A stretch of 64,000 nucleotides of DNA from Salinilacihabitans rarus (GCF_024296665.1 NZ_CP100762.1:1798001-1862000); one strand, 5' to 3'; positions 20,711-30,922 are shown, counted from the first letter of the stretch. A program made the numbers and translations. The notes: generated by a model from the letters alone, not told the origin.

Positions 20711-21409
20711 GTGGCGACCGGCGACGTCCGCGGCGGCGTGCGCCGGCTTCTCGACCGAGTACCGGAACTCACGTGGGTCCAGAAGTCGCTGCTCGCCGGC
20801 GCCGTCCTGACGGTGCTGTGGATGCGTCTCGTCCCCTCGGACCTCGGCCGGCGGGCCGTCGTCGACGGCGTCCTCTTGATCGGCGGGCCGCTCGCGCTGG
20901 GGCTCACCCACGGCCGCCGCGTCGGCTGGCGGGTCGACCGGCGCGCGGCCCGCAACGCCCTCCTGCTCTCGCTGTTCGTCCTCCCGTTCTACCTCGTGGG
21001 GTCGACGCTGCCGACGATCCGCGAGTTCTACCCGATGTGGGAGACCTCGGCCGCCCTCGGCGAGTTCCTCCCCCACGGCGTCCAGCTATTCCTGCTCGCG
21101 CTGGCCGCGGAGACGTACTACCGGGGGTTGCTCTGCGTCGGCGTCCGCGAGATCGGGTTCGTCGCGGTGTTCATCAGTCCCGTCGTCTACATGCTCCACC
21201 ACTCCTCGAAGCCGCCGGTCGAGTTCCTGCTGTCGGGGCCGACGGACGTCCTCTTCGGCGCGGTCGACTACGAGTCGAACTCGATCCTGCCGTCGGTGAT
21301 CGCCCACGGGGCCGGTCTCGTCCTGCTCGACTGGCTCGTCCTCCACGACCCGCTGTTCGACCCCGCGCCCGCGCTCCGGGCGGTCGAGTGGCTACCCGTG
21401 CCGCTGTGA
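20711..21409 (+). CDS. CPBP-type intramembrane metalloprotease-like protein
   Basis: A 232-residue protein starting at GTG, with about six membrane helices. The CPBP (Abi) motif appears in partial form as LAAETYYRGLL, with one glutamate instead of EE, followed by YMLHHSS and VIAHGAGLVLLD, whose histidines would be metal ligands. CPBP proteins are intramembrane proteases related to prenyl-protein processing enzymes. The single glutamate makes activity less certain. Its stop lies inside the 3' end of the convergent CPBP gene (18 bp overlap). Confidence 0.75.
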   Translation: MATGDVRGGVRRLLDRVPELTWVQKSLLAGAVLTVLWMRLVPSDLGRRAVVDGVLLIGGPLALGLTHGRRVGWRVDRRAARNALLLSLFVLPFYLVGSTLPTIREFYPMWETSAALGEFLPHGVQLFLLALAAETYYRGLLCVGVREIGFVAVFISPVVYMLHHSSKPPVEFLLSGPTDVLFGAVDYESNSILPSVIAHGAGLVLLDWLVLHDPLFDPAPALRAVEWLPVPL

Positions 21410-22294
21410 GTCCGCGGTCCGGCGTCGGTCGACGAGCGGGGGCGGGCGCGGTATCCGTTCGGACTTCAGTAACGTCGTCGGTCCCCAGAGCGCCGCGAGC
21501 AAGGCGGCCAGCAGCACCCAGTTGGCGTAGTAAAACACGTCGGCCACCGCGACGGTTTCGGCGGTGAAGTTGATCCACCCGTGTAAGACCACGATGGCGA
21601 GGACGCTGCGGGCCGTGTGGTTGTACACCCACGTGAACGCCACCGAGAGGGCGACGATCCCGATCATGAACAGCCAGAACCCCTGCGTCCCGAATCCGAC
21701 CGACTCGGCCTGAAACGAGCCCGCGACGAAAAACAGCGGGAGGTGCCACCCCGCCCACACCACGCCCAGTATCAGGCTCGCGGTCAGCGCGGACCACGTC
21801 GTCTGGAGCCGATCCAGCGCGTAGCCTCGCCACCCCAGTTCCTCGAGGATGGGTGGGAGCGTCGCGAAGAAAAGCGCCGGCAGGATCGCGAGCGGGTCGA
21901 CGCCGAACTGCCGAACCCCCTCGCCCCACGTCGCGCCCGGTCCGCCGAACGCCACGTCCATCACGGCTGCGGCGAGAGTCACGACCAGCGGCAGGGCCAG
22001 AATCACGAGGAACCACCGGGAGCCGATTCGACCGATCCCGGTGACGCGGGCCCGGAGGTCCGACAGGCCGTCGCGGCCGTACGCGAGGTACGCGAAGGCG
22101 ATTCCCGCGATTCCCGGGCCGGTGAGTCCCAGCAACAGCAGCAGGGCCCCCGTACCGCTCGCAAAGGATACCCCGAGGGCGATCGCCGACAGCCAGAACG
22201 ACCACGTGATGGCGAACGTCACGGCGAAGAAGACCCAGGGGCTCGTCAGGGAACCGGTCGTATCGGTGATCGTTCGGCGCACGTTTTGGTACAC
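21392..22294 (-). CDS. CPBP-family intramembrane metalloprotease
   Basis: A roughly 300-residue protein with seven or eight membrane helices and a full CPBP motif set: LEELGWRGYAL (EExxxR), GWHLPLFF and VVLHGWINF. I place the start at GTG 22294; the frame is open to a GTG at 22339, but those extra residues are encoded by the left inverted repeat of the island. If the island inserted here, it may have replaced the native promoter. GC content is intermediate between core and island genes. Confidence 0.85.
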   Translation of the reverse strand: MYQNVRRTITDTTGSLTSPWVFFAVTFAITWSFWLSAIALGVSFASGTGALLLLLGLTGPGIAGIAFAYLAYGRDGLSDLRARVTGIGRIGSRWFLVILALPLVVTLAAAVMDVAFGGPGATWGEGVRQFGVDPLAILPALFFATLPPILEELGWRGYALDRLQTTWSALTASLILGVVWAGWHLPLFFVAGSFQAESVGFGTQGFWLFMIGIVALSVAFTWVYNHTARSVLAIVVLHGWINFTAETVAVADVFYYANWVLLAALLAALWGPTTLLKSERIPRPPPLVDRRRTADSQRHG

Positions 22295-22319
22295 GGTACC
22301 ACGGACGGTCGGTGCGAGC

Positions 22320-22354
22320 TTAACAGTTGTTGCAAACACGGATTATTTATTCAG
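22320..22354 (+). repeat. Left terminal inverted repeat of the island
   Basis: A 35-bp sequence beginning TTAACAGTTGTTGCAAA and ending TTTATTCAG. It matches the reverse complement of 28601-28635 at 31 of 35 positions. Both copies read outside to inside, the arrangement of terminal inverted repeats. No target-site duplication is visible in the flanks. Confidence 0.8.
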
Positions 22355-22425
22355 AATTGATGAAGAATGGAAGCCGAACTCCTACTGTGATAGTGAAGGC
22401 TAAGGAATCGCCTAGCTTCAATGGT

Positions 22426-22435
22426 AGTATAAATG
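22426..22435 (+). promoter_or_regulatory. TATA box of the HTH_10 regulator
   Basis: The sequence agtataaatg lies about 60 nt before the ATG at 22495. An imperfect inverted repeat (gaaggctaagg / cctagcttc, about 22395-22419) sits just upstream and could be an operator. Confidence 0.5.
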
Positions 22436-22494
22436 CAGAGTATGAGAGTGGGAGGCTGCCCATTCAGTAAACCGCTGAGCCAGGTGGTATTCCG

Positions 22495-23145
22495 ATGAGA
22501 GCGGTGACAGTCCTCGTCTCGCCCCCGACGAATCACCCTGTGGACCATCTGTTTACCAGTGAATCGAGTGTGCAACGGGAGCGAATCTTCAATCTCACCC
22601 TCCTCGAAGATGGGACGTTCGTTCTCCTCGGCCGGATTCGGGGCAATCTAACGCATGCACGCGAAATCCTCTCGGCTGAACAGGACGTCCTCGGATTCAG
22701 TATCTCCGAACAGGACGCGAACGTCGGGCTCGTGTTTGTACACGCTCGACCGCCGTCATCCATCAGGCGGATACTCGAACTCCGTCGAGAGCAGGGCGTG
22801 TTCTTCGACTTCCCGATCGAGGCGACGGAAGAGGGGCAGCTCAAGCTCACCATCGTCGGCGAAACCAACAGCGAAATCACGGGAGTACTGGACGAAATTC
22901 CAGCAGAGATCGAAATATCGGTCGAACGAATCGGCCCGTACATCGAGGGTCCGAAATCGATGAAAGACTTGCTGACCGACCGCCAGCGCGAAATACTGGA
23001 CGTCGCGCTCACCAGCGGGTACTACGACGTTCCTCGGCGCGCGACTCACCGAGACATCGCCGAACAACTCGAACTCGCAGTGCCGACAGTGAGCGAACAC
23101 CTCCAGAAAATCGAAGCTAGAATCTTCGGCGCTCTCGAACTCTGA
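22495..23145 (+). CDS. HTH_10 (Bat-like) transcriptional regulator
   Basis: A 216-residue protein. The C terminus is a haloarchaeal HTH_10 domain: LTDRQREILDVALTSGYYDV, then RATHRDIAEQL and VPTVSEHLQKIE (about residues 158-212). The N-terminal domain is of the kind fused to Bat-like regulators and probably senses a ligand. It is the first gene inside the inverted-repeat island, with lower GC than the core genes. It lies 158 bp before the dikinase gene and may control it. Confidence 0.88.
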   Translation: MRAVTVLVSPPTNHPVDHLFTSESSVQRERIFNLTLLEDGTFVLLGRIRGNLTHAREILSAEQDVLGFSISEQDANVGLVFVHARPPSSIRRILELRREQGVFFDFPIEATEEGQLKLTIVGETNSEITGVLDEIPAEIEISVERIGPYIEGPKSMKDLLTDRQREILDVALTSGYYDVPRRATHRDIAEQLELAVPTVSEHLQKIEARIFGALEL

Positions 23146-23186
23146 GCACGGCCCCGGGACCCTCAAAAAACGCCGCCCTCCGGTTT

Positions 23187-23239
23187 CATATTTAAATGGC
23201 CATTAGTACTAGGCATCAGTCTAACTCCTCAGCTAGGCA
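23187..23239 (+). promoter_or_regulatory. Promoter and repeated heptamer before the dikinase gene
   Basis: A strong TATA element catatttaaatgg at 23187-23199 is followed by two direct copies of ctaggca (23209-23215 and 23233-23239), 24 bp apart. They lie around or just after the expected transcription start, a place where a repressor could bind. A GGAGG motif precedes the ATG at 23304. Confidence 0.45.
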
Positions 23240-23303
23240 ATAGCGTATTATGGAACTCTGCCCCGTTACAGATCAGTGCCGTGTAATCAGGAGGGATGAT
23301 TAG

Positions 23304-26060
23304 ATGCCGGAGACTGAGCTATCAGACGTACGCGACCGGCGGTTCGTCATCTCGCTGGACGAAGAAGACGCGACAAACCTCGAACTCACTGGCGGTAAGG
23401 GTGCAAATCTCGCTCGCTTAGTCGAAGCGGGCATGCCAGTCCCCGCTGGAACGTGTGTGACGACTGGCGCCTATCAGGTTCTCGCCGACGAGCCCGACAT
23501 CCGGGCAGAGATCGAATCGTTGGAGGGACTCGACCCGGAGAGTGCGGACGAAATCGCTACGAAGAGTGAGGAACTCAGAACGAAGATCCGGGAGACGGAG
23601 ATCCCCGAACACGTCCAGCGGGCTATCTCGAACGCACTCGACACGCTCGGTGCCGATGCGTACGCCGTTCGGTCGAGTGCGACGGCCGAGGATTTGCCGA
23701 CGGCGTCGTTCGCCGGGATGCACGAGACGTTCCTCGGAATCGACCAGGAAAACGTCCCCGAATACGTTCAGGAGTGCATAGCGAGCCTCTTCACGGAACG
23801 GGCAGTGTCGTACCGGCTCCGGAACGGCATCTCGCACTCTGAGGTAGCGATGGCGGTAGTCGTGCAGACGATGGTCGAACCAGAGGTTGCCGGAGTGCTC
23901 TTCACCGCCGATCCTGTGTCCGGTAATCGCCACATTGCATCGATCGACGCCAACTATGGTCTTGGCGATACGGTGGTCGCCGGAGACGTATCTCCGGACA
24001 ACGCACGTGTTGACCGGCGAACTGGAGACGTCCTCGAATACGAAGTCGGCGAAAAGCAGCTCGCGCTCCGCTCGGGGAAGGACGACCAGGATGAGCCATC
24101 GCTGGAAGAGGTGTCTACGGGACGCCGCGAGAGCCGGGCGTTGACCGATGCCCAACTACGGGAACTCGTAGAGTTCGGGGAAGATGTCGAAGAACTACTC
24201 GGGAGCCCACAGGACATCGAATGGGCACTCGTCGATGGCGAGTTCGTGCTGCTCCAGTCACGTCCAATTACCTCTTTGTATCCGCTCCCCTCACCAGCGC
24301 CAGCCGGCGACCAGCTGCACATCTACTTCAGCATCGGTCACCAGCAAGCGATGGCCGAGGCACTCCCACCACTGGTCGCCGATTGGATGCAGGAAACGCT
24401 AAACAGGTCGGTTGCTCGGTTCCAGTCCCCCGAATCCGAGCAGTCGTTCGCAGTCGAAGCCGGACGCCGAGTGTATGTGGACCTCACCCCCCTTCTCCGA
24501 GGGGAAGTAACACGAAAGATCGCTCTTCGCGTCCTCGACTCGATGAGCGAGCCTGCGACGCGTGCACTCGAAGATATCCTCGACCGACACGACGATACAT
24601 TTTCCCAAGACACGCTCACGAACAGGCTCCGAACGCTCGGTCGCGTGAGCCGACGCCTCCTCCCACTTGCGGTCTCAAACGCACCGCACCTGTTGGTCCG
24701 TCTCCTCGAGCCGTTCCTTTTGGGGCCACCCGACGCCGAACACGTCCGTGCTCGTGTCGAACGGGCGGGAAAAACGATGGCAGCTCGTGTCACGCAACCC
24801 GAGTCCCGGAGTGAGCGGATTCGAGTGGCATTCGAGGAAACTGCACTCGGGACGCTGGTCGCTTCGGTCGGAAGCAAGTCGATGCCGTATCTCCTGGCCG
24901 GCGTCGTGGCGGGCAACGTGCTGGAACGGCTGTACCCGGACGCAGACGACGAACTCACAGCACTCAGCCGCGGATTCGACGAGGAGATCGCCACCGAAAT
25001 CAATCAGCGGCTCGGCGACCTCGCAGATATTTCCAGGGAACATCCGGGCGTCGAAGCGGCGATTCGAGACGAATCCTCGCTCTCAGAGATCGAAGATGTC
25101 GATGGCGGAACCGAATTCGTGGCGGCATTCGAGACGTTTCTCGACGACTTCGGCTTCCGGACGAGTAACGAGATAGACCTGAGCCGACCACGCTGGCGAG
25201 ACGACCCTTCGATACTCTTTCAGACGATTCGAAGTAATCTTCGGAGTAGTGACCGGGGAGAACACCGCAAACACTTGGCGCAACTGAAACAGGATGCGGG
25301 TGAAGCCGCCGAGAAACTCGAGAATCGCGCTAGTCGAGGACTCTTCGGCCCCGTGAAACGGCCGATTGTGGGGCAGTTGATCCAAGTGTACCGGGGAGGA
25401 ATTCAGCTCCGGGAACATCATAAACACGGAGCTGCGCGGTTTCTCGCGGCCATACACGACTGCGTCTCCGATGTGGGAACCGAACTCGCTGAGGCTGGAG
25501 TATTGGAACACCCAGAGGACGTCTGGTTCCTCCGGAAACGGGAGTTGTTGGACGCACTTGATGGTGAGTCCCCTCTTGATGTAGACGTCTCCGAACGACG
25601 TGATACTCACCAGCGATATATGTCACTGAGCGCACCGCCTATTCTCACGAGCGAAGGAGAGACACCGACAGGCAAGAGAAATGGTTCACCCTCAGAACAC
25701 GTGCTCACTGGAACGCCGGTCTCGTCCGGTGTGGTCGAAGGAGTTGCCAGGGTGATGCACGATCCGTCCGAACAGTCGATTTCAAAGGGTGAGATTCTCG
25801 TCGCCCCGTCTACGGACGTTGGATGGACACCGTTGTTCCAGGATGCGGCTGGGTTAGTGATGGAGGTTGGTGGCCGGATGACACACGGCGCACTGGTCGC
25901 ACGTGAGTACGGTATTCCGGCCGTCGTGTCGGTGGCGAACGCAACCAACGAAATCCGAACGGGCGAGCGAATTCGAATAGACGGCGAGCGCGGAACCGTC
26001 GAGTTACTTGACCGAACGGACCAGTCGACGGGAGATTCTGACTCTGAGAGTAAGCGATGA
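23304..26060 (+). CDS. Rifampicin phosphotransferase-like PEP-synthase-type dikinase
   Basis: A 918-residue three-part enzyme. The N-terminal ATP-grasp domain begins with GGKGANLARLVEAGMPVPAG and has AVRSSATAEDLPTASFAGMHETFL and QSRPITSLYPLP (to about residue 335). A large central domain follows. The C-terminal swivelling domain carries the phosphohistidine loop GGRMTHGALVAREYGIPAVV (histidine near residue 860). This order and the length match rifampicin phosphotransferases more than PEP synthase, which has a C-terminal TIM barrel. The enzyme would transfer phosphate from ATP via histidine to an acceptor; the natural acceptor is unknown. A GGAGG sits before the start. It overlaps the DUF4010 gene by 4 bp. 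Confidence 0.85.
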   Translation: MPETELSDVRDRRFVISLDEEDATNLELTGGKGANLARLVEAGMPVPAGTCVTTGAYQVLADEPDIRAEIESLEGLDPESADEIATKSEELRTKIRETEIPEHVQRAISNALDTLGADAYAVRSSATAEDLPTASFAGMHETFLGIDQENVPEYVQECIASLFTERAVSYRLRNGISHSEVAMAVVVQTMVEPEVAGVLFTADPVSGNRHIASIDANYGLGDTVVAGDVSPDNARVDRRTGDVLEYEVGEKQLALRSGKDDQDEPSLEEVSTGRRESRALTDAQLRELVEFGEDVEELLGSPQDIEWALVDGEFVLLQSRPITSLYPLPSPAPAGDQLHIYFSIGHQQAMAEALPPLVADWMQETLNRSVARFQSPESEQSFAVEAGRRVYVDLTPLLRGEVTRKIALRVLDSMSEPATRALEDILDRHDDTFSQDTLTNRLRTLGRVSRRLLPLAVSNAPHLLVRLLEPFLLGPPDAEHVRARVERAGKTMAARVTQPESRSERIRVAFEETALGTLVASVGSKSMPYLLAGVVAGNVLERLYPDADDELTALSRGFDEEIATEINQRLGDLADISREHPGVEAAIRDESSLSEIEDVDGGTEFVAAFETFLDDFGFRTSNEIDLSRPRWRDDPSILFQTIRSNLRSSDRGEHRKHLAQLKQDAGEAAEKLENRASRGLFGPVKRPIVGQLIQVYRGGIQLREHHKHGAARFLAAIHDCVSDVGTELAEAGVLEHPEDVWFLRKRELLDALDGESPLDVDVSERRDTHQRYMSLSAPPILTSEGETPTGKRNGSPSEHVLTGTPVSSGVVEGVARVMHDPSEQSISKGEILVAPSTDVGWTPLFQDAAGLVMEVGGRMTHGALVAREYGIPAVVSVANATNEIRTGERIRIDGERGTVELLDRTDQSTGDSDSESKR

Positions 26061-26821
26061 GCACTCGCTGGAGCGAGATGAGAGGTCGAATCGATACGGA
26101 AGACCTCAGAGCGATAGCTGAATTTCTTGCTCTGCTCCTCGTCTTGCTGGTTTTACCCGACGAGCGCCTCGATGTACTGCTCGGAGTGAACCCGCGACAG
26201 GTCTGGTTAGTCGTGGTGTTCGTCGCAGGACTGAGTTTTCTCGGATACCTCCTATCCAAGGTAGTCGATCCGGGGACTGCAATCGGGGTCACCGGAGCAC
26301 TTGGGGGTGCCGTGTCCCCCGGAATGACAATTACATCACTCACTGAACAGTACCGGCGTCATCCGGAGTTCGGTCTTGCCTACACGGTCGCAGCCGCAAT
26401 CGCATCGACGATGCTGTTCTCGCGTAACTTCATCGTCGTGGCCATCGTCAGCCCTGCACTTGCCCAGTCGCTCGTGATTCCATTCGTGGCGATGGCCGGG
26501 GTAGGATTCCTCGTGACAGGGAGTCTCCGGCTTCGTACTCGAAATCGTGAACCACCAACGAACGAATTAAATACTCCGTTTCGGATTCGATCAGCGCTAG
26601 CGATCGGCGGCCTTGTCGCGGTCGTTCTTGCCTTCGTCAATTCCGTTGACCTGTCTCTTTCAGCAGGCACTACCCGCATTGGAATCGTCGTAGCGACTGT
26701 GGTACAGTTATCTGTATACGTTGCAGTAACGTCGATAGCTGGTGCGAAACAGATTGCTCAAGTGATCGTTGTGATACTACTCGGTAGCGCGAGCGTCGGA
26801 ATTGTGCTCGTCGTGTTATAG
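26057..26821 (+). CDS. DUF4010 (MgtC/SapB-associated) membrane protein
   Basis: A 254-residue integral membrane protein with about seven helices, carrying the DUF4010 region: VVFVAGLSFLGYLLSKVVDP, then GTAIGVTGALGGAVSPGMTI and TMLFSRNFIVVAIVSPALA. In most genomes DUF4010 follows an N-terminal MgtC/SapB domain; here that domain is absent. The ATG overlaps the dikinase stop (ATGA), so the two are translationally coupled and probably act together, perhaps in transport linked to the modifying enzyme. The function is inferred from linkage only. Confidence 0.8.
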   Translation: MSTRWSEMRGRIDTEDLRAIAEFLALLLVLLVLPDERLDVLLGVNPRQVWLVVVFVAGLSFLGYLLSKVVDPGTAIGVTGALGGAVSPGMTITSLTEQYRRHPEFGLAYTVAAAIASTMLFSRNFIVVAIVSPALAQSLVIPFVAMAGVGFLVTGSLRLRTRNREPPTNELNTPFRIRSALAIGGLVAVVLAFVNSVDLSLSAGTTRIGIVVATVVQLSVYVAVTSIAGAKQIAQVIVVILLGSASVGIVLVVL

Positions 26822-27027
26822 CGGAGCACACCCGAAATGATACGCTTGGTACCGAAACACATCGGCATCTTGCACTGAAACCCGCATTCGACTAGAATAT
26901 CTAATTGAATTCGAGCCAGGTTGCATGCCATGTTCTGGCCTTCTATTCAGCACGGGCCGTTGTGGCTGTTATCTGATATATACACTATTTTACAGCCTTC
27001 GGCAAGAGTCCAAAATGAATTCCTACT

Positions 27028-27292
27028 TCAGCGGAACTCTGACCAAGGATCAAACGCTTTGAACTTGTCTTCGACCACCGACAGGTCGTCCTTCTCCCCA
27101 ATTTGCAAATCAGCGGGATCTTCCTCGATAGCACGCATCACCTCGGGACCGCGGAACGGGTAGTCCTCATCGTCGTCACCGAGATCAATCTCCAGTTCAT
27201 CGGCGCGCTTCACGTTCGCGGCCAGCCACATATTGTACCAGAGGACGGCGAAATAGAACACCTCGCTGAAGTGCCACACGCTACTCGTGGCG
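27028..27292 (-). mobile_element. Truncated IS transposase, C-terminal fragment
   Basis: A minus-strand frame encodes about 88 residues with a VWHFSEVFYFAVLWYNMWLA segment, which resembles the C-terminal end of haloarchaeal IS4-type transposases, followed by an acidic tail ending DPWSEFR. The rest of the transposase is missing: immediately upstream the sequence switches to a GC-rich plus-strand gene remnant. The fragment is AT-richer than its right neighbour. No terminal repeats of the element could be found. Confidence 0.5.
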
Positions 27293-27623
27293 GTCTTGCT
27301 CGACAACTACCGTGACGGCCACGAGTTCGCCGATCTCCTCCTGGTGGTGGACCGCGCCGGGGAGATCGTACCCCCTCGGACGGTCTACGCCGGCGAGGAT
27401 TTCGCGCTCCGAATCGACGAGCGCGCGGGCGGACGACCGTCGTCCCGCCTCGGGAGTCGGCCGCGGCGGTCGTGGGCCGCCACGTGGAATCGGTTGACCG
27501 CACACCCGCTCGACGCCGCTCACGACAAGTACGACATGGTGCTCGACGCGAATCTCCGTCGATCGGCGCGTGGTCCACCGCGCTCCAGTACATCGAGGAC
27601 TTCCGGGAGGTGTTCGACCGATG
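27293..27623 (+). pseudogene. Decayed gene A, C-terminal part, unknown family
   Basis: Plus-strand coding texture begins abruptly at the transposase fragment: VLLDNYRDGHEFADLLLVVD and YAGEDFALRIDERAGG in one frame. It continues in others (ESAAAVVGRHVESVD; HPLDAAHDKYDMVLDANLR) and ends IGAWSTALQYIEDFREVFDR before a TGA at 27621-27623. At least three frame changes are needed, so it is a pseudogene lacking its 5' end. The stop overlaps the ATG of gene B, as in an operon. I do not recognise the family. Confidence 0.4.
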
Positions 27624-28550
27624 ACGCGCATCCAGCAAGTCCAGTGGAGGCTGGAGATGGACTACATCGGCCACCCGTACTACGTCTCGGGGAACGCCAT
27701 CATGCACGCGCTCGGTCAGCAACTCCCGCACGACGTCCACCGGCACCTGAACGCGAGTCACGGCGTCTTCGTGCCCGGGCAGTTCGGGACTTCCCGAGGA
27801 GCACTCGCAGAGCGGTATCCGGCCGTACCTCGGGAGTGGGCTCCCGGACGTCGAGGCGTACGACGACCTGTTCCTGATGCGGCAGGCGTCGCACTCGTGG
27901 CTCCTCGATTCCCGGCCGCGAGACGCGCCGAACACCCACGACAGCCGCGTCCAGAGCGGTCACCTGACGCTGTCCCACGAGACCATCATGGGGAAACCCG
28001 ACGGCGCGCGGAAGCAACAGCGGACGACGAAGTGGTACATCAACGCGTACCTTCACGCCGACCGGGACGACGTCCTCCCGCTCGACGAGAGCGCCCTGGA
28101 CGGCCTCCAGTTCGGCGGGAAGCGCAACTACGGCTACGGCATCACGGGGCTGAAAGACACGCAGGTCGTGGACCTGGACGTTGGACTACTCGCGCCTCGA
28201 AGACGGCGAGGCGTTCATCCTCGAACTCGTGACGCCGTTCGTGCTGGAGTCGGAGTACCCGAACGCCCACGACCAGGACGTCCCGTGGTGGTGGAAGGAG
28301 GACCGCCGCCGATCTCCGTGAACGCGAGGAGAAGGTGCCGGAGCAACGCGAGGTGTACAAGCTCCAGGCGGTAGACCACGGACAGGTGGTCGCCTACGAG
28401 GGCGACCGTCCGGTGGAGACCGCGAAGAGCGGTATCCTCCGGGTCGGAAGTCACTCGAAGTACGGCTTCGGTGAGTTGCGAGTGAAGCCCGTCGAACCCC
28501 GGTCGGAGCAGTGGCAGAAACCAGATGAAAAGACGAAGGTCACCGGGTGA
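27621..28550 (+). pseudogene. Decayed gene B, RAMP-like protein
   Basis: Starting MTRIQQVQWRLEMDYIGHPYYV at 27621, the coding sequence shifts frame near 27783, near 28178 and near 28310, and ends at 28550. Joined, it would be about 310 residues. Two glycine-rich loops, FGGKRNYGYG near the middle and GSHSKYGFGELRVKP near the end, and a YVSGNAIMHAL segment near the start, recall the RAMP fold of CRISPR Cas5/Cas6/Cas7 proteins. No CRISPR repeats or other cas genes are in the window, so the CRISPR link is a guess from loop texture. The gene cannot be functional as it stands. Confidence 0.4.
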
Positions 28551-28600
28551 AATAACTCATGCGAGACAGAGAAATCGGCACGAAAAAATCACGCTGCAGA

Positions 28601-28635
28601 CTGAATAAAGAAATCGTATTTGCAACAACTGTTAA
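28601..28635 (-). repeat. Right terminal inverted repeat of the island
   Basis: Reverse complement begins TTAACAGTTGTTGCAAA and ends TTTATTCAG, matching 22320-22354 at 31 of 35 bases. To its right normal GC-rich core sequence resumes and the DUF302 promoter appears intact. Confidence 0.8.
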
Positions 28636-28694
28636 ACCAGGCAGGGGGCTCTCGACCAGCCACTGTTTTACGCACGCCACGCGATGTACCGCGC

Positions 28695-29153
28695 ATGAGT
28701 CTCCCGATCGACCCGACCGAGATCGACCCCGACGAGTACGGCGAGAAACAGGCGGTCCTCGAGATGGACCACGAGGAGGCCGTCGAGCACGTCCGCGAGG
28801 TCTGTCTCGACGTCGGCTTCGGCATCCCCGTCGAGTTCTCCCCGTCGGAGTTGCTAAACGAGAAGGTCGACGCCGACCGGGACCCCTACTACGTCCTCGG
28901 CGCGTGCAACCCCGAGATCGCGGATCGGGCCCTCGACGAGACGATGGGCATCGGCGGGCTCTTCCCGTGTAACACGGTCATCTGGGAGGAAGAACCGGGC
29001 CGCCAGCGGGTCTACCACGTCTCGATCATGCGGATCGCCCGCCTGCTCGGGATCGCACCGGACAGCGAGGAGTGGGGCGAGATCCTCGCGGCGACCGGCG
29101 AACTCACCGAGGAACTGTTCGAGCGCCTCGACGCGGTCGAGGCGAGCGGCTGA
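28695..29153 (+). CDS. DUF302-family protein
   Basis: A 152-residue soluble protein with the DUF302 core: a helical start EAVEHVREVCLDVGFGIPVE, then YYVLGACNPEIADRALDE and GLFPCNTVIWEE. DUF302 proteins are small alpha/beta domains of unknown activity that are often found with redox or sulfur genes. A TATA-like ctgttttacgc at about 28663-28673 lies just before the start, which suggests a leaderless message whose promoter was left intact by the island boundary. Confidence 0.85.
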   Translation: MSLPIDPTEIDPDEYGEKQAVLEMDHEEAVEHVREVCLDVGFGIPVEFSPSELLNEKVDADRDPYYVLGACNPEIADRALDETMGIGGLFPCNTVIWEEEPGRQRVYHVSIMRIARLLGIAPDSEEWGEILAATGELTEELFERLDAVEASG

Positions 29154-29161
29154 GTCGCCGG

Positions 29162-29422
29162 TTACGACCGCAGGAGCTTCGGCACGGCTCTGACGTACCG
29201 CCAGTGGAGCGCGAGGTGGACGGCGACGAGCGCGGTCATCGTGAGGCTCGCGAGGACGTGAACGCGGGTCCAGTCGCCGCGGACCAGCCCGACGAAGTCG
29301 AGCCCGCGCGAGGTGCCCCCGCCCGGGAGCACCTGCCAGAGGACGACGCCCGAGGCGAGGACGACGAGAAACGCCGCGAACAGGAGGAGGTTGACCGAGA
29401 GGTTCTGCGTCCGTCGGTTCAT
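29162..29422 (-). CDS. Small DUF4405-like membrane protein
   Basis: An 86-residue membrane protein with two helices. It contains DWTRVHVLASLTMTALVAVHLALHWRYV, in which spaced histidines (HV and HLALH) resemble haem ligands of cytochrome b-like DUF4405 proteins. The partner is unknown. It begins MNRRTQNLSV. It converges on DUF302 and is separated from the upstream antiporter gene by 54 bp. Confidence 0.75.
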   Translation of the reverse strand: MNRRTQNLSVNLLLFAAFLVVLASGVVLWQVLPGGGTSRGLDFVGLVRGDWTRVHVLASLTMTALVAVHLALHWRYVRAVPKLLRS

Positions 29423-29476
29423 GCGTGACGAGACGGCCGGAACGGGCAAAGCGTCGTCCGTGCAGTATACAGGGGG

Positions 29477-30922
29477 TTATCCCCGCCCCAGTCCGCTCCG
29501 GGGCAGGCGGGCGCGCCGCGTCGTCGGCACGCCCACGCCGGTCGCCGCCATCGCGAACAACACGAGCGGCGACAGCAGGCCGAACAGGTAGTACGGCGCG
29601 TACTCCAGCGTGGGGACGCCCGTCGCCGAGGCCATGAAGACGCCCCCGGCGTGCCACGGGATGAGCGCGCCCGTCGGCGTGCCGGCGGCCTCGACGGCCC
29701 GCGAGAGCTGGTCGCCCTCGAGATCGAACTCCTCGTAGAGGTTCCGCAGCGTCACCCCCGGCAGGACGATGCTCATGTACTGCTGGGCGGTCAGCGCGTT
29801 GATCGCTATCGCCGCGGCGCCCGTGCCCGCGATCAAACTCGTCGAGTTGCGGATGCCCTGCGAGAGCCGGTGGGCGAGCACCGCGAGCGTGCCCGTCCGT
29901 TCGAGCAGGCCGCCGAGCGCGAGCGCCGCGACGACGACCGTGATCGTCCACGCGGACCCCGAGAGGCCGCCGGTCGCGAGCAGTTCGTCGACGAGGGCCG
30001 CCCCCGTCCCGGGCTCGGTGCCGTACAGGAAGACGTCCCACGCGGCGACGAAGCCGACGCCCTGGACGGCGACCGAGGTGACGACGCCGGCGAAGACGCC
30101 GGCGACCAGCGACGGCAGGGCGGGGTAGCCGCGGAACGCGAGCCCGAACGTGACCGCCAGCGGGAGAAACGCCAGCGGCGAGAGGTCGTAGGTGCCCGCG
30201 AGCGCGCCCTGGATCTCGACGACGCGGTCGGCGGGGATCGCCCCGTCGACGCCGACGCCGAGGGCGGCGAACGCGAGGACGGCGACGGCAAACGCCGCGC
30301 CCGTCCCCGTCCGCATCCGGCGGATGTGGTCGTACAGCGGCGTGTTCGTCACGCCGGCCGCGAGGTTCGTGGTGTCGGACAGCGGCGACTGCTTGTCGCC
30401 GGCGTACGCCCCCGAGAGGACCGCGCCGACGGTCATCGGTGCGGGGACGCCGAGTCCGGCGCCGATGCCGACGAACGCGACGCCGAGGGTCCCGACCGTC
30501 GTCCACGAGGAGCCGATCGAGAACGCGACGACGGCCGCGAGGACCGCCGCGACGGGCAGGAACACCGCCGGCGTCAGCGATTCGAGGCCGTAGTACATCA
30601 TCGCCGGAATCGTCCCCGCGGCGACCCACGTGGCGATGAGCGCGTAGATGGTGAAGACGATCAGGAGTGCCTGTGCCCCCATCAGGAGGCCGCCGGCGAG
30701 GCCGTCCGAGAGGTCCTCCCACGTGTAGCCGAGGGAGCGGCCGAAGGCGCCGGTGAAGACGATGCTCCACAGCAGCGGGGCGTGCGGGTCGAGCCCCAGC
30801 AGGGCCGAACCGACGCCGAGGAACGCGACGACCGCGAGCACCGGAACGAGCGCGAGACGAAACGAGGGCCGTCGCTCCGGGTCGAGGTCGTCGACGGTGG
30901 TCGGTGTGAAGTCGAGCGTCAT
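29477..30922 (-). CDS. nhaC: NhaC-type Na+/H+ antiporter
   Basis: A 481-residue integral membrane protein with about 11-12 helices and NhaC motifs: AFSIGSSWTTVGTLGVAFVG, GAVLSGAYAGDKQSPLSDTTNLAA and a C-terminal AGTPTGALIPWHAGG. It exchanges Na+ for H+ (or a related Na+-coupled substrate exchange) across the cytoplasmic membrane, a normal need in high salt. The acidic N terminus is cytoplasmic. A TATA box gcataaaaac at 30944-30953 lies about 25 nt before the ATG, implying a leaderless message. Confidence 0.9.
   Translation of the reverse strand: MTLDFTPTTVDDLDPERRPSFRLALVPVLAVVAFLGVGSALLGLDPHAPLLWSIVFTGAFGRSLGYTWEDLSDGLAGGLLMGAQALLIVFTIYALIATWVAAGTIPAMMYYGLESLTPAVFLPVAAVLAAVVAFSIGSSWTTVGTLGVAFVGIGAGLGVPAPMTVGAVLSGAYAGDKQSPLSDTTNLAAGVTNTPLYDHIRRMRTGTGAAFAVAVLAFAALGVGVDGAIPADRVVEIQGALAGTYDLSPLAFLPLAVTFGLAFRGYPALPSLVAGVFAGVVTSVAVQGVGFVAAWDVFLYGTEPGTGAALVDELLATGGLSGSAWTITVVVAALALGGLLERTGTLAVLAHRLSQGIRNSTSLIAGTGAAAIAINALTAQQYMSIVLPGVTLRNLYEEFDLEGDQLSRAVEAAGTPTGALIPWHAGGVFMASATGVPTLEYAPYYLFGLLSPLVLFAMAATGVGVPTTRRARLPRSGLGRG

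Follow-up and report, generated by a model that had tools for sequence, protein, structure and literature searches.

A decayed transposon copy with remnants of a CRISPR-like HRAMP cassette in Salinilacihabitans rarus

What kind of element is the 6.3-kb island at positions 22320-28635 of a 64,000-nucleotide stretch of the Salinilacihabitans rarus genome (NZ_CP100762.1:1798001-1862000; this whole stretch is called the window)? A preliminary description of the sequence had drawn attention to the 35-bp inverted repeats on either side of it and had proposed a mobile element or composite transposon carrying a modification module. Our analysis indicates that the island is very probably a non-autonomous, decayed member of a family of haloarchaeal unit transposons, which carry an HRAMP cassette together with variable cargo and are presumably moved by an ISH3-related DDE transposase. 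HRAMP (haloarchaeal RAMP) is presented, in the passages of PMC8730458 and PMC12669027 that treat it, as a CRISPR-like system of Haloarchaea that lacks an array and derives from type III. In the following, loci are labelled with L numbers and genomes with G numbers, G000 being the window's own genome.

The inverted repeat is real and not due to chance. The arms at 22320-22354 and 28601-28635 are, as described, complementary at 31 of 35 bases, and the number of such pairs expected by chance in 64 kb is about 2e-5 by an analytic estimate, or about 0.03 if all bases are AT-biased. The shift in composition was likewise reproduced, with a GC content of 0.588 inside the island, the two 10-kb flanks having 0.724 and 0.682. 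The statement that no target duplication is visible did not hold, as TTAA directly abuts the 31-bp repeats on both sides. Because TTAA is palindromic, that is, its own reverse complement, it had been included in the repeat by mistake. The four outermost bases of each 35-bp arm most plausibly represent a target-site duplication of 4 bp, and the true terminal repeats are therefore 31 bp each:

22320..22323, unstranded: target-site duplication TTAA, left copy (from the sequence; family pairs have identical 4-bp NTAN outside the 31-bp ends, and in relatives an exact empty site has just one copy)
22324..22354, plus strand: 31-bp terminal inverted repeat, left end (LE type), differing at one position from that of the relative L087
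28601..28631, minus strand: 31-bp terminal inverted repeat, right end (RE type), identical to the consensus, which occurs in 45 of 392 haloarchaeal genomes
28632..28635, unstranded: target-site duplication TTAA, right copy (same basis as the left copy)

The ends of the family read CAGTTGTTG...TTTATTCAG, and in the window the element is flanked by GTGCGAGC before the left TTAA and by ACCAGGC after the right one. No further copy of the repeat motif was found in the window's genome within two mismatches.

When the island was compared with 60 relatives by DNA search, the matches ran from 27266 to 28635, the very last base of the right repeat, and in the loci of these relatives larger units carry the same terminal motif on either side. 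The search of haloarchaeal genomes that the preliminary description had proposed was run with the 31-bp consensus at up to three mismatches and gave the 45 genomes mentioned above, while a reversed-pattern control gave 0. NTAN flanked 71 of the 76 sites examined. HRAMP genes or their remnants were present within 6 kb at 38 of the 71 sites having at least 3 kb of sequence, the remainder including solo ends and miniature inverted-repeat transposable elements (MITEs). The transposon units are approximately 3-10 kb long and their NTAN duplications include GTAA, ATAT, ATAA, TTAA, TTAT, CTAA and others. Identical 4-bp flanks were found in 38 distinct paired units, that of the window and 37 others. 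In the first set, the flanks were equal in 22 of 26 pairs against a permutation mean of 3.6 and a maximum of 12 in 100,000, but this test is approximate, as pairs with equal flanks had been selected first and those with unequal flanks included manually, and the argument is carried by the empty sites.

Empty sites were found for two units of one genome, L033 and L034, whose joined flanks were searched in six congeners. In three of these both sites are uninterrupted, with one ATAA or one TTAA at the position of the unit, and the ATAA of the L033 site is also present in two more distant congeners. Therefore, the whole unit was inserted end to end as one piece. For L033 and L034, these single-copy sites refute the explanation that the island was assembled by recombination and that the repeats are unrelated promoter or MITE sequences flanking it by chance. 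The occurrence of the ends as solo copies and short MITEs would agree with such an origin, but for the window it is highly improbable, given the end-to-end collinearity with L087, the matching left- and right-type ends and the TTAA on both sides. Repeats consisting of ancestral promoter sequence, which the preliminary description had named as a finding that would speak against mobility, are ruled out, as the ends recur with 4-bp duplications at unrelated sites and two relatives have exact empty sites. A composite transposon is ruled out as well: there are no flanking insertion sequence copies and the left- and right-type ends are asymmetric. Of the original proposal, the mobile element is thus strongly supported, in the form of one unit transposon.

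Some observations weigh against this explanation. The flanks are unequal in L087, L097, L098, L100, L210 and L233, and the window copy has no exact empty site, no genome of the same genus being among those compared. One unit with the same ends and a TTAT duplication (L207:4358-9274) contains a 622-aa transposase and other genes but is without HRAMP, so HRAMP is not required for movement. In addition, the window copy is probably immobile, because no family transposase was found in its genome at E ≤ 1e-60. Regarded as a unit transposon, the copy has paired inverted ends and TTAA on both sides but not an intact transposase of its own. In spite of these points, its identification as a mobile element is well supported.

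What the window copy contained before it decayed can be read from its closest relative. L087 (G143:C6:202103-211845; 9.7 kb) is located in a genome from another haloarchaeal family and has the same ends and the same three cargo genes, encoding a regulator, a dikinase and a DUF4010 protein, in the same order. The two copies align from end to end in blastn (22321-22368; 22368-27263 at 93.4% identity over 4.9 kb; 27266-28636 at 92.2% over 1.38 kb), the window copy lacking one segment of about 0.6 kb close to the left end and another of about 2.83 kb in the interior. The features between the terminal repeats are as follows:

22368, unstranded: junction of the gap of about 600 bp relative to L087, where a DUF6653 gene sits (blastn against L087; Pfam match of the L087 open reading frame)
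22495..23145, plus strand: cargo, intact regulator of the HTH_10/HVO_0513 type, 216 aa (Pfam; 94% identity to the L087 cargo protein)
23304..26060, plus strand: cargo, intact dikinase of the PEP-synthase/rifamycin phosphotransferase-like group, 918 aa (Pfam PPDK_N and PEP-utilizers; NCBIfam below cut-off; 93% identity to L087)
26057..26821, plus strand: cargo, intact DUF4010 membrane protein, 254 aa (Pfam; 95% identity to L087)
27049..27258, minus strand: C-terminal remnant of a transposase of an ISH3/IS4-related DDE family (tblastn against the family transposases, E 1e-5 to 4e-7; 83% identity to the L087 fragment)
27263..27266, unstranded: junction of the internal deletion of about 2.83 kb relative to L087 (blastn; 27263 corresponds to L087 11307 and 27266 to L087 8473)
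27260..27562, plus strand: 3' part of the conserved HRAMP protein gene 'sm' (residues 145-245 of a relative), start missing (tblastn, 71% identity)
27615..28511, plus strand: HRAMP Cas5-like gene, broken into four pieces over three reading frames (tblastn, pieces 64-75% identity)

The deletion of about 2.83 kb removed the rest of the transposase, the small genes, the Cas7-like gene and the start of sm, and it joins the C-terminus of the transposase to the second half of sm. L087 has whole Cas5-like, sm and Cas7-like genes, unlike the window copy, but its transposase is truncated as well and its flanks, TTAC and TTAT, differ at one base. The inventory given in the preliminary description was largely accurate with respect to the HTH_10 regulator, the dikinase, the DUF4010 membrane protein and the two decayed genes, and also in that no intact transposase is present, as only the C-terminal remnant is retained. 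The transposase piece is indeed there, but it is the C-terminus of the element family's own transposase, and the two dead genes could be identified as a CRISPR-like Cas5 and its truncated partner gene. The window copy is thus a decayed, non-autonomous derivative, a relic.

The dikinase set, earlier read as a modification module, is passenger cargo, and it is present too in L087, in another family. The window's genome also has a resident dikinase-DUF4010 pair with 44% and 52% identity to the cargo pair, and the cargo is therefore a mobile version of a pair known also outside the element. A second mobile element of this genome, L035, is located at G000:3519468-3524275 and has the duplication ATAA. 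With regard to the surroundings, the start of the CPBP gene said to run into the left repeat is merely a GTG falling inside the repeat, and the gene lies outside the element. The genes at 20711-21409 and 28695-29153 are close neighbours in many relatives and are separated in the window by a second CPBP gene (21392-22339) and the element. An Rfam scan of window positions 21000-30000 gave no match.

How are the complete members built? From the left end, they contain the transposase gene (reading toward the left end), small genes, in some cases a gene for a 224-aa TnpB-like protein, and the Cas7-like, sm and Cas5-like genes, followed by the right end. A full-length transposase (about 600 aa) together with HRAMP genes is found within paired ends in L096, L110, L126, L206 and L209. 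The transposase matches DDE_Tnp_1, with the ISH3 and IS4 models below cut-off, and its position and family suggest that it moves the element; structure prediction from an alignment of four sequences was of low confidence (pLDDT 40). In L206 and L209, a small RelE-like protein adjoins the full-length transposase, in L209 together with a CopG-like partner, both recognized by eye and not by a family search. MITEs with the family ends range from 109 to about 880 bp, those of 109-110 bp with 4-bp duplications being L222, L231, L242 and L243. In addition, a 2.6-kb unit with the same ends and an ATAG duplication (L225:9281-11923) carries three other genes, one of them trans-sulfuration-enzyme-like, and is without transposase and HRAMP.

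The TnpB-like protein matches the TnpB and Cas12f models. In intact relatives, the Cas7-like protein matches Csm3 (E 1e-5) and type III RAMP models and the Cas5-like protein matches the Cmr3 model (E 2e-6); as these matches are weak, they indicate remote homology to type III RAMP proteins. A sequence search of the PDB with the Cas7-like protein gave no match, and no family match was found for sm. The best PDB matches of the AlphaFold model of sm (pLDDT 88) were almost only Csm1/Cas10 chains, all of them weak (best E 0.27), so that an origin of sm as a Cas10 remnant is only suggested by the predicted structure.

These features best support movement by the family's ISH3-related DDE transposase, which would act on the 31-bp ends, the whole unit being inserted at NTAN sites with duplication of 4 bp. 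The HRAMP cassette (Cas7-like, conserved protein, Cas5-like and in some copies the TnpB-like nuclease) adjoins the right end, with the variable cargo beside the transposase. The window copy arrived with its HTH_10, dikinase and DUF4010 cargo and is now without most of the transposase and HRAMP.

Is HRAMP as a whole tied to the transposon? In a tree of 91 Cas7-like proteins, two clades were split at 100/100 support, and sm occurs in both. At 43 of 54 loci of the mobile clade, the right end follows Cas5 or the transposase lies upstream; among the 49 loci with enough sequence, 40 have the right end in that position. In the other clade, none of 37 loci has either (right end in 0 of 35 testable loci), although this comparison used one end motif and would overlook a different end type in the second clade. 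Both kinds are represented in the window's genome, the mobile one by L035 and the static one by an HRAMP locus without the ends (L045/L247, G000 at about 774-778 kb). The HRAMP Cas7-like gene is also present on plasmids NZ_CP038632.1 and NZ_CP038633.1, both from a single strain of Halobacterium salinarum, and on other plasmids of Halobacterium, while no match was obtained in the phages or viral contigs searched.

A sister clade without such ends, and the free swapping of the other cargo, would be expected if HRAMP were a host defence module in its own right, taken up a single time by this transposon lineage, with no functional tie and a linkage by shared descent. This is a serious possibility, if a somewhat doubtful one, because the retention of ends or transposase by most mobile-clade loci across many haloarchaeal families suggests continued co-mobilisation. 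It differs from the explanation that we favour solely in whether HRAMP serves the element. The same ends around other cargo, another search proposed earlier, were indeed found, and the cargo of other members includes an Avs1b-like protein, a PDC-S19 protein, a DUF4365 protein and TPR/ATPase proteins, with defence-like matches. In L081:5873-10947, paired ends enclose a 1478-aa Avs1b-like protein and HRAMP is reduced to a Cas5 remnant. We infer that HRAMP, like much of the cargo, consists of defence genes that travel with the element and help it persist, the HRAMP cassette being most likely a defence or persistence module.

HRAMP could also take part in transposition itself, a Cas7/Cas5 complex with the TnpB-like nuclease acting in target choice or element retention as in Tn7-like CRISPR-associated transposons (CASTs). 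The cassette adjoins the right end and has been kept in widely diverged copies, and it is accompanied by the transposase and in some copies by the TnpB-like RuvC protein. However, the targets share NTAN only, no array-like repeats were detected in 38 units, no conserved RNA fold was predicted in the right-end region, and L207 has moved without HRAMP. Guide-target matches between element and flanks were also considered and rejected, since there was no clear excess and the longest shared words (8-13 bases) were much as with other elements. RNA-guided insertion is therefore unsupported, and assistance of transposition by HRAMP is quite unlikely. It is also unlikely that a CRISPR-derived RAMP complex, perhaps with the TnpB-like nuclease, cooperates with the ISH3-related transposase in an archaeal transposon outside the Tn7 group and favours retention of the element by directing insertion or attacking competing DNA. 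If true, this would be an independent archaeal counterpart of CASTs.

To our knowledge, neither a function nor a means of spread had been assigned to HRAMP, a CRISPR derivative that is here found riding on a transposon. A whole HRAMP clade located between transposon ends, together with a dedicated transposase and exchangeable cargo that is often defence-like, would explain the patchy spread of the system and provides defined units to test. As related copies reside on plasmids of Halobacterium salinarum, both mobility and HRAMP function are directly testable.

Like CASTs, the element is a transposon with a CRISPR-derived multi-subunit module and cargo. The known CASTs comprise Tn7-like systems and Mu-like and telomeric variants, as listed in sections of PMC11406308 and PMC12669027, whereas the present family has a single ISH3/IS4-related DDE transposase instead of the Tn7-like set (TnsA/B/C, TniQ), no array and no sign of guided targeting. 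With the ISH3 family it shares haloarchaeal hosts and a DDE transposase similar to the ISH3 model (E 4e-23), but at 82 bits against a curated cut-off of 225 it is a relative and not a member. ISH3 of Halobacterium is about 1.4 kb long and makes 5-bp duplications (PMC10264941), in contrast to the protein of about 600 aa, the elements of 3-10 kb with cargo and the 4-bp duplications seen here. In the literature searched, we found no earlier description of the transposon family, although the founding HRAMP paper (FEMS 2019) may mention it. HRAMP itself is described, in the relevant passages of PMC8730458 and PMC12669027, as a defence-like locus with nucleases mostly of the HNH or PD-(D/E)xK kind, and these passages mention no transposon link. 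The Cas7-like/sm/Cas5-like set of the element matches that published description in its haloarchaeal host, its diverged Cas7-like and Cas5-like proteins resembling type III, its lack of an array and perhaps, in sm, its conserved extra protein. It differs in that one HRAMP clade lies here inside paired transposon ends, with a transposase of its own and, in some copies, a TnpB-like nuclease.
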